A model generated the notes under the pieces. The model saw nothing but the letters and a program-made list of their open reading frames with translations, searched no databases and was not told where the DNA came from. A program made the position numbers and the translations under genes. Below are positions 8,551-10,593 of a stretch of 64,000 bases of DNA, in pieces. Source of the DNA: Andreprevotia sp. IGB-42. GTDB taxonomy: Bacteria > Pseudomonadota > Gammaproteobacteria > Burkholderiales > Chitinibacteraceae. The stretch is taken from positions 372,001-436,000 of the forward strand of contig NZ_WXTX01000002.1 of NCBI RefSeq assembly GCF_009848685.1, given 5' to 3'. The first letter of the stretch is position 1. Each line of letters begins with the position of its first letter.

Positions 8551-9876
8551 ATGAAAGTCGTTATCGTTGGCGCAGGTGTCATCGGCGTGACCACCGCGCA
8601 CTATCTGCAAGCGGCCGGCCATCAGGTCACCGTGCTGGAAAAACTGCCCGCTGCGGCGGAGGAAACCAGCTTTGCCAATGCCGGCCAGGTATCGCCCGGC
8701 TACGCAGCGCCTTGGGCGGCGCCCGGCGTGCCATGGAAGGCGATCAAGTGGCTGGCATCGCGCCATGCGCCGCTGCGCATCCGCCCGGATGGCAGCTGGT
8801 TCCAGCTGGCGTGGATGGCGCGCATGCTGGCCAACTGCAGTACCGGCGCATTCGAGCGCAACAAGCGCCGCATGGTGCCGCTGGCCGAATACAGCCGCGA
8901 CTGCCTGCGCGAACTGCGTAGCGAAACCGGCCTGCATTACGAAGAACGCGCGCTGGGCACGCTGCAACTGCTGCGCACCCCCAAGCAGATGCTGGCCGCC
9001 GAACGCGATGCCGCCATCCTGAACCACCTGGGCGTGCCGCATGAGCTGCTCGATACCAACGAGCTGGCAGCAGTGGAGCCGGCGCTGGAGCGCGTTGCAC
9101 ACAAGCTGGTGGGCGGCCTGCACCTGCCCAATGACGAAACCGGCGACTGCAAGCTGTTTACCGAGCGCCTGGCCGCGCAGTTGGTGCAGAAGGGCGTGCA
9201 GTTCCGCTATGGCGTGACCGTGGAGCAACTGATCACCCGGCAGAACCAGATCCGCGCGGTAGTGCTCGATGACGGCGAAGCCATTTATGCCGACAGCGTG
9301 GTGCTTGCCGCCGGCTGTGCCAGCCGCGCACTGGCCGCACCGCTGGGGCTGGATCTGCCGGTTTACCCGGTAAAGGGCTATTCGCTGACCATTCCGCTGG
9401 CCGACCCGGATGCCGCACCGCGCTCTACCGTGCTGGATGAAAGCTACAAGATCGCGCTGACCCGCTTCGACAACCGGCTGCGCGTGGGCGGCATGGCTGA
9501 GCTGGTGGGATACGACCGCAAGCTGGACCCGGCGCGCATCGATACGCTGAAAATGGTCACCCGTGATCTGTTCCCGGATGCGGCCGACCCGGCACAGGCC
9601 AGCGCCTGGACCGGCCTGCGGCCGATGACGCCGGATGGCACGCCGCTGGTATGCGCCACTGATGTGCGCGGCGTGTTCCTCAATACCGGCCACGGCACCT
9701 TGGGCTGGACCATGGCTTGCGGCTCCGCGCGGGTGGTTGCCGATCTGGTGGACGGCCGCGTGCCGGAAATCGAAACCGGCGGCTTGTCGCTGGACCGCTA
9801 CGGCCGCTACAGCAAACCGGCAGCGCCCAACCAAGCGAATGCGCGGCCGGGCCATGGCCATCCGGCGCAGGCCTGA
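8551..9876 (+). CDS. dadA: D-amino acid dehydrogenase
   Basis: A 441-residue FAD enzyme that oxidises D-amino acids (mainly D-alanine) to 2-oxo acids, passing electrons to the membrane quinone pool. The N-terminal dinucleotide-binding motif is GAGVIG (residues 7-12). Further DadA hallmarks are [41 protein letters not shown] and [15 protein letters not shown]. Length is slightly above E. coli DadA (432) because of a short Pro/Ala-rich tail. The start follows AGGGCG. The divergent Lrp-type gene is its likely regulator. Confidence 0.95.
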
Positions 9877-9917
9877 AGTAGCGGATTGTTGTCGCCGTTG
9901 CAAACTGGCAATAAATT

Positions 9918-9957
9918 TTACCCGGGTAATTTACAAACGGTATTTACCCGGGTAAAT
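9918..9957 (+). promoter_or_regulatory. Two CCCGGG palindromes overlapping a promoter (candidate operator)
   Basis: Two palindromes, TTACCCGGGTAA (9918-9929) and the perfect 16-mer ATTTACCCGGGTAAAT (9942-9957), are centred 26 bases apart. A promoter TTTACA (9930-9935), 17-base spacer, TAAATT (9953-9958) fits between and over them, so a protein bound to both would cover -35 to -10. The following gene encodes a DUF2239 protein. Confidence 0.72.
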
Positions 9958-9981
9958 TAACAGCCATCAACACGATGATGG

Positions 9982-10593
9982 ATGTTAATCATGACTACGC
10001 CCACCCTCCAATCAGCCCCGCAGCAGTGCACTGCATTTGCCGGCACCCGCCGCCTTGCCACCGGTTCGCTCGGCACCGTGGCCATTGCCGTCAAGCAGGT
10101 ATGCGATGGCGGTGAAACCGCCAGCATCCTGGTATTCGACGATCACACCAGCCAGCCCATCGAGTTCGACCTGCGCGGCAGCGTTGCCGATGTACTGCAA
10201 CGGCTGCCCGCAGCGCAGCCGGCCGATGACGCCGGCGAAGACGACCAGCCGCGTGGCCGGGGCCGCCCCAGGCTGGGTGTGGTAGCGCGTGAAGTCACGC
10301 TGCTGCCGCGCCATTGGGATTGGCTGGCCACGCAGCCGGGCGGTGCATCGGTAGCGCTGCGCAAGCTGGTGGAAGAAGCGCGCCGCGCCAATGACGATGC
10401 AGACCGCAAGCGGCTCTCGCAGGAAGCCAGTTACCGCTTCATGGCAGCCATGGCCGGCAACGAGGCAGGCTTTGAAGACGCCACCCGTGCGCTGTTTGCC
10501 GGCAACCGCGCCGCGTTTGAAGCCAGCACCGACAACTGGCCTGTGGATGTGCGTGATTACGCCCGGCAACTGGCCATGGTTGCGCTGTGGTAA
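9982..10593 (+). CDS. DUF2239-family protein, possible DNA-binding autoregulator
   Basis: 203 residues of the DUF2239 family, for which I know no function. Residues 1-75 form a small beta-rich domain. A Gly/Arg tract RGRGRPRLGV (91-100) looks like an AT-hook. It leads into residues 101-136 (REVTLLPRHWDWLATQP, then ASVALRKLVEEARR), whose strand-helix-helix pattern recalls ribbon-helix-helix repressors. Two GC-centred palindromes lie over its promoter, so self-regulation is a fair inference. ATG 9991 is an alternative start three codons later; neither has a strong ribosome site. Confidence 0.8.
   Translation: MLIMTTPTLQSAPQQCTAFAGTRRLATGSLGTVAIAVKQVCDGGETASILVFDDHTSQPIEFDLRGSVADVLQRLPAAQPADDAGEDDQPRGRGRPRLGVVAREVTLLPRHWDWLATQPGGASVALRKLVEEARRANDDADRKRLSQEASYRFMAAMAGNEAGFEDATRALFAGNRAAFEASTDNWPVDVRDYARQLAMVALW

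Follow-up and report, generated by a model that had tools for sequence, protein, structure and literature searches.

The window analyzed here, a stretch of 64,000 nucleotides from Andreprevotia sp. IGB-42, carries a gene of the DUF2239 family (PF09998) behind a promoter over which two palindromes lie (Table 1). The encoded protein, of 200 amino acids or of 203 if an alternative in-frame ATG at 9982 is used, matches the Pfam model at all of its positions (1-182 of 182) with an E value of 1.1e-78 and 263.7 bits, the curated cut-off being 25; NCBIfam gave no match for it. Pfam describes the family as uncharacterised, and the literature searched held no paper naming DUF2239, PF09998 or COG3644, which we take to be the COG number of the family. 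The initial annotation had placed palindromes of 12 and 16 bases, with centers 26 bases apart, over a TTTACA-N17-TAAATT promoter, and the positions and the gap of 17 are as claimed on re-reading.

Table 1. Features of the DUF2239 locus (window positions) and genes adjoining unlinked operator sites (loci)
Feature	Position or loci	Strand	Remarks
Operator 1, TTACCCGGGTAA (9918-9929) with A/T flanks	9916..9931	.	touches the -35 box
Operator 2, ATTTACCCGGGTAAAT	9942..9957	.	between -35 and -10, overlaps -10
-35 box, TTTACA	9930..9935	+	TTGAC in 42 of 52 aligned promoters
-10 box, TAAATT	9953..9958	+	17 bases 3' of -35
DUF2239 gene, 200 aa	9991..10593	+	
N-terminal alpha/beta domain, residues 12-71	10024..10203	+	strands 12-17, 20-26, 46-50; helices 27-39, 65-71
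AT-hook-like arm RGRGRPRLG, residues 88-96	10252..10278	+	
Putative strand (98-105), helix A (106-113), helix B (118-155)	10282..10455	+	
C-terminal helices 161-170, 173-180, 185-199	10471..10587	+	from the model
Alpha/beta hydrolase next to unlinked site	L153-L155, L187, L275-L277		7 sites; three bacterial families
GIY-YIG-like protein next to unlinked site	L186, L191, L193-L196, L198		7 sites; three bacterial families
MATE pump next to unlinked site	L188, L192, L197		3 sites
SnoaL-like protein next to unlinked site	L189		1 site
Short-chain dehydrogenase next to unlinked site	L190		1 site

Perfect palindromes are numerous in the window, where 45 span 12 bases and 7 span 16, the operators' own two included. 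By itself a 12-base palindrome is nothing out of the ordinary in this DNA; two copies of one sequence flanking a promoter are unusual. With up to three mismatches allowed, TTTACCCGGGTAAA occurs four times in the window against 0.54 expected, a count that none of 100 shuffles reached. The exact sequence TTTACCCGGGTAA is found in the 4.7-Mb genome at this promoter only, with five other places one base off. A three-mismatch match at 9362-9375, TTTACCCGGTAAAG, falls within the upstream gene for a DAO-family oxidoreductase and is probably due to chance.

Conservation of the palindromes was examined at 71 DUF2239 loci from genome contigs, among the matches listed, and at 4 from a class-wide search, without de-duplication between collections. 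Evidence of a shared upstream site is apparent even when no motif is assumed, the most enriched 8-base word being CCGGGTAA, present at 55 of 73 usable loci and in none of 421 control segments from the same loci. The degenerate form TTAYCCGGRTAA, matched at 10 or more of its 12 positions, stands upstream of 70 of 76 DUF2239 loci, the window included, with at most 244 bases searched at each; the remainder of the same loci, chosen as control because the consensus was itself derived from this set, contains 14 matches in 444,265 bases. Among the loci bearing the site are some on proteobacterial, Bryobacterales, Myxococcales, Gemmatimonas and Obscuribacterales contigs, MAGs in many cases. Searching upstream of other DUF2239 genes, as the initial annotation had proposed, thus gave strong co-occurrence, and one outcome that it had named as refuting, palindromes that do not accompany DUF2239 genes, did not arise. 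Further loci behave likewise: 7 of 8 new loci of the same family and 21 of 22 from the phylum (L128-L149) carry a match no more than about 200 bases upstream of the gene. Sites are paired at 74 of 105 loci when each is required to match at least 9 of 12 positions, with a spacing of 28 bp in 34 and of 25-30 bp in 68. The exact 16-mer did not hold up as the conserved element; that role falls to degenerate TTAYCCGGRTAA, usually paired and with A/T flanks. As a marker the 16-mer is too strict, and lone exact 13-mer matches in relatives at L014, L015 and L018 were rejected, lying inside open frames. The genomes of the first two (G398 and G402) lack DUF2239; another exact 13-mer match, L017, stands alone in G390, a DUF2239 genome.

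The pattern has exceptions. No match of at least 10 of 12 was found upstream at six of the 76 loci, namely L013, L030, L034 (where the contig end cuts the region), L037, L057 and L075, and among the further loci none was found upstream of L093, from the window's own family, of L148 or of the partial L151, with the match farther off in the partial L150. At L013 (1441-1468) there is a related upstream pair with a different center, ACCAAGGT and ACCTTGGT, at a distance of 20 bases from each other; this natural variant might help in mapping the half-site. The genome of L093 (G391; also L156), of the same family, has DUF2239 with no recognizable operator before the gene, and L151 (G621:C23:28585-28881) is a second DUF2239-like protein, which matches the model over its C-terminal half only (85-182) and is without an operator. 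Two other loci that look alike, L076 and L144, encode DUF2239 with a long C-terminal extension, 343 amino acids each, and appear to be one species in two collections.

Aligning the promoters places the sites within a common architecture. Across 52 promoters, restricted to operator pairs spaced 25-30, the order is operator 1, TA, TTGAC, a spacer, operator 2 and an A/T-rich stretch, with operator 1 just upstream of the -35 box and operator 2 over the -10 region; the commonest spacing is 28 bp and that of the window 26 bp. Judged by eye, the -10 box of the window coincides with the A/T-rich stretch, and its TTTACA-N17-TAAATT reads as one instance of this layout. Operators that adjoin -35 and cover -10 suggest occlusion of the polymerase and hence repression, which is an inference. 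The position of operator 1 against -35 is also one that some activators use, so that an activating or dual role for DUF2239 in place of plain repression can be entertained; we consider it unlikely, as in the aligned promoters operator 2 extends over the -10 region, again by eye, and would there occlude polymerase.

The bases that border the sites carry a signal of their own. When sites were picked by the 8-base core AYCCGGRT alone, giving 131 sites at 87 of the 106 loci, the flank positions -2, -1, 12 and 13 were A or T in all 131, with both letters occurring and in either order, whereas in 42 control core sites the same positions were A/T in 26-45%. Overlap with promoter boxes may account for part of this pattern, but not for the outer flank of operator 1, where no G or C occurs at -2 or -1 among 62 paired sites. 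Flanks restricted to A and T in this way are what minor-groove arms would give, in keeping with the conserved GRP arm of the protein, although the argument is indirect and there are no binding data.

To extend the comparison to whole genomes, a sequence-only profile of the paired-operator promoter, R1, took the place of loose gapped patterns, which were abundant by chance in genomes with and without DUF2239. It was searched in genome draws of the same size as those of the DUF2239 searches and, as far as listed, of the same genomes. At E ≤ 1e-4 the profile matched 18 of 26 DUF2239 genomes and 0 of 273 others in the phylum draw (Fisher p 5e-23), 17 of 21 against 0 of 268 in the second-class draw (p 5e-24) and 8 of 9 against 0 of 34 in the own-family draw (p 6e-8). 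With the genomes that built R1 excluded, the counts are 7 of 15 against 0 of 273 (phylum) and 15 of 19 against 0 of 268 (second class), and contigs named for the same species may still overlap. In the own-family draw six of the eight matched genomes had contributed to R1; outside the model only G372 and G397 were matched, and G391 was missed. R1 misses 8 of 26 (phylum) and 4 of 21 (second class) DUF2239 genomes at this cut-off, and in the window's own genome no further R1 site lies below E 0.3, the next best match having E 0.34. Confinement of the operator promoter to DUF2239 genomes is thus observed in all three draws at E ≤ 1e-4 and not at looser cut-offs, where DUF2239-free genomes give 2 of 273 at 1e-3, 8 of 273 at 1e-2 and, in the second class, 1 of 268 at 1e-3. 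Eight of nine such loose sites were inspected and set aside, six of them inside frames of at least 100 codons; L180 and L184 lie in apparently one short gene.

These results bear on another reading of the palindromes, that they are CCCGGG restriction or methylation sites, replication elements or products of chance. The commonness of 12-base palindromes in the window would permit it, but what is conserved is a degenerate sequence, YCCGGR and not CCCGGG, which is mostly paired, with little variation in spacing, and lies on a promoter; together, upstream conservation, pairing and the R1 genome test are strong evidence against the restriction-site or chance reading, to which we attach negligible weight.

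Sites away from DUF2239 point to further genes. Nineteen R1 sites unlinked to DUF2239 were inspected in genomes that have the gene: every one of the 13 from the phylum draw, 3 from the own-family draw (E ≤ 1e-4) and 3 new ones from the second-class draw. Seventeen of them lead into three gene families, encoding an esterase-like hydrolase, a GIY-YIG-like protein and a MATE pump (Table 1). The adjoining gene is on the best-scoring strand of R1 in 18 of the 19, L191 having it on the opposite strand, and R1 is covered near full length at 8 sites and by one operator plus TTGAC only at 11. Labels for the MATE, SnoaL, dehydrogenase and hydrolase proteins are backed by Pfam for the members scanned and were otherwise assigned by eye; that of the GIY-YIG-like protein is weak (Pfam E 4.9e-4, below the cut-off). 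The closest solved structures to a fragment of the hydrolase are ORF17, the macrolide esterases EstT and EstX, and aclacinomycin methylesterase; EstX is described in PMC11214618. GFA-family genes lie divergent to the unlinked sites L189 and L197.

Two of these families also occur beside DUF2239 itself. The GIY-YIG-like gene does so at 22 of 106 loci, 16 times upstream on the opposite strand and 6 times downstream, and a MATE gene lies downstream at 9 of 106. A shared regulator would be expected to leave such a pattern, in which genes that neighbor DUF2239 in some lineages lie at a distance from it in others and there bear its operator. Among 210 second-class genomes the GIY-YIG-like protein is found in 10, of which 9 are DUF2239 genomes, and all nine genes of the latter are preceded by at least one site (≥10 of 12); six adjoin DUF2239 and share its region, and three are unlinked (G575, G745 and G754), the one in G575 being already among the 19. 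The tenth (L297/L298, G777:C7:56289-56604) is in a genome with no DUF2239 match, is interrupted in its frame and lacks a site, so that across these 210 genomes the protein is intact only where DUF2239 is present. Because several lineages carry extra sites before unlinked genes, the term "autoregulator" is too narrow.

Co-occurrence of site and gene cannot by itself separate a regulator from its target, and in the absence of demonstrated binding a different regulator encoded elsewhere could bind the palindromes, with DUF2239 merely one of its targets. A Fur-family gene is indeed found near DUF2239 at eight loci (L073, L078, L080-L084 and L086), its identity resting on Pfam (PF01475) in L084, the one Fur gene scanned; these loci form one syntenic group. 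Among the 40 largest neighbor clusters listed, within about 3 kb, the recurring ones that we recognized were the GIY-YIG-like and MATE families and synteny-type clusters of related genomes, with no other regulator family seen to recur across lineages. The absence of the operator promoter from DUF2239-free genomes at E ≤ 1e-4, together with the basic, strand-helix-helix-like character of the most conserved part of DUF2239, further argues against an outside regulator, which we regard as very unlikely.

DUF2239 as the DNA-binding protein itself is also the reading toward which its conservation points. In 57 members there are 22 invariant columns, 19 of them at residues 91-130, that is, within the arm and the strand-helix-helix stretch taken together. 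We propose this stretch, with its arm, as the DNA-reading unit, for which there are no binding data; the N-terminal domain is possibly a sensor or dimer domain, by inference. The AT-hook-like arm noted initially is present as RGRGRPRLG, and the A/T-only flanks add support to it; across the family, however, only GRP is constant (57 of 57), RGRP being limited to 35 members, with PGRP in 19, VGRP in 2 and AGRP in 1. The whole-protein model (pLDDT 89.8) has a low-confidence linker that runs into the GRP arm, followed by an extended stretch and helices at 106-113 and 118-155.

Whether this stretch folds as a ribbon-helix-helix is less clear. The pattern suggested initially gains something from a model of the fragment alone (pLDDT 72, pTM 0.44), whose best match among only three Foldseek chain matches is the ribbon-helix-helix antitoxin ParD2, weakly at E 6.3 with a target TM of 0.64; VIA-align 2 gave Z 3.6 and 2.7 Å over 44 residues. 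It finds no support in Pfam, where no ribbon-helix-helix family appeared among the 25 listed of 26 families matched by the 57 members up to E 10, nor in hhalign against 29 RHH_1 domains (29 of 30 rows, with L207 dropped for its odd length), where P was 0.058 over 10 columns and not significant; short domains of this kind often escape detection. DSSP assigns no strand to this stretch in the single-chain models, searches with the whole model by Foldseek and VIA-align gave no match of use, with a best E of 2.7 and Z of at most 4.9, and no solved relative was found by sequence (best E 0.7). The ribbon-helix-helix fold, resting on such models, is plausible but weakly supported and not demonstrated. 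DUF2239 may instead bind and autoregulate through another fold, such as a helix-turn-helix, as the length of helix B and the missing sequence and strand evidence would allow; the ParD2 match, weak as it is, and a palindromic 8-bp core that fits a symmetric dimer count against this, and we judge another fold a serious possibility without expecting it.

Comparison with known systems shows DUF2239 to resemble several of them in part. MetJ, Arc, CopG, NikR and ParD are ribbon-helix-helix repressors, and like them DUF2239 has a strand-helix-helix-like order, putative as to the strand, after a basic arm, a short palindrome as the core of its site, promoters with more than one operator and autoregulation, in its case proposed. 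MetJ uses an 8-bp box per dimer, which the 8-bp core AYCCGGRT resembles. Unlike these repressors, DUF2239 shows no sequence match to ribbon-helix-helix families among the matches listed, has a much longer helix B and possesses extra N- and C-terminal parts. AT-hook proteins include the HMGA type and bacterial CarD; DUF2239 shares with them the GRP core and A/T flanks in which A and T are interchangeable, but it has a single arm beside a putative specific DNA-reading unit, and 22 of 57 members lack RGRP. TetR/MarR-type repressors of drug efflux use palindromic operators that overlie the promoter of the repressor gene and also precede genes for efflux pumps or detoxifying enzymes, a placement like that seen here with an unrelated protein family. 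Literature on ribbon-helix-helix proteins with MATE, autoregulation or AT-hook held nothing on DUF2239 among the matches listed, and the operator strings appeared in one recombination paper (PMC3147054) and not otherwise in the literature searched.

We conclude with considerable confidence that DUF2239 is a DNA-binding regulator, most likely a repressor, with negative autoregulation and a small xenobiotic-type regulon. The DNA-binding autoregulator proposed in the initial annotation is supported by the operator's co-occurrence with the gene, locally and in the R1 draws, and an autorepressor with a small regulon is very probably the correct description, with binding and repression by the protein inferred. 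What the computation establishes directly is how the site is conserved and arranged, its link to DUF2239, which genes stand behind it and that its flanks are A/T only. DUF2239 would recognize WWTTAYCCGGRTAAWW, and when bound to the two operators at its own -35 and -10 it would block RNA polymerase. The same site, paired or single with a TTGAC box, before unlinked genes in several lineages would bring these into the regulon. Each operator may be covered by a symmetric dimer, with a ribbon-helix-helix strand pair over the core AYCCGGRT and GRP arms in the minor grooves of the A/T flanks, and a ligand, possibly an aromatic or macrolide natural product, would release the protein from DNA; the dimer, the two-groove contacts and the release are all inferred. 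That DUF2239 constitutes an undescribed, widespread class of repressors reading both grooves and governing a conserved antibiotic or xenobiotic response through the esterase-like hydrolase, the MATE pump and the GIY-YIG-like protein is a more tentative proposal, to which we give somewhat less than even weight.

A family without a known function thereby becomes a transcription factor open to test, for which an operator, a promoter layout and candidate targets can be named in bacteria from several phyla. The operator allows regulons to be read off genomes, and targets resembling drug efflux and antibiotic-hydrolyzing enzymes point to an unrecognized form of natural-product sensing in environmental bacteria.
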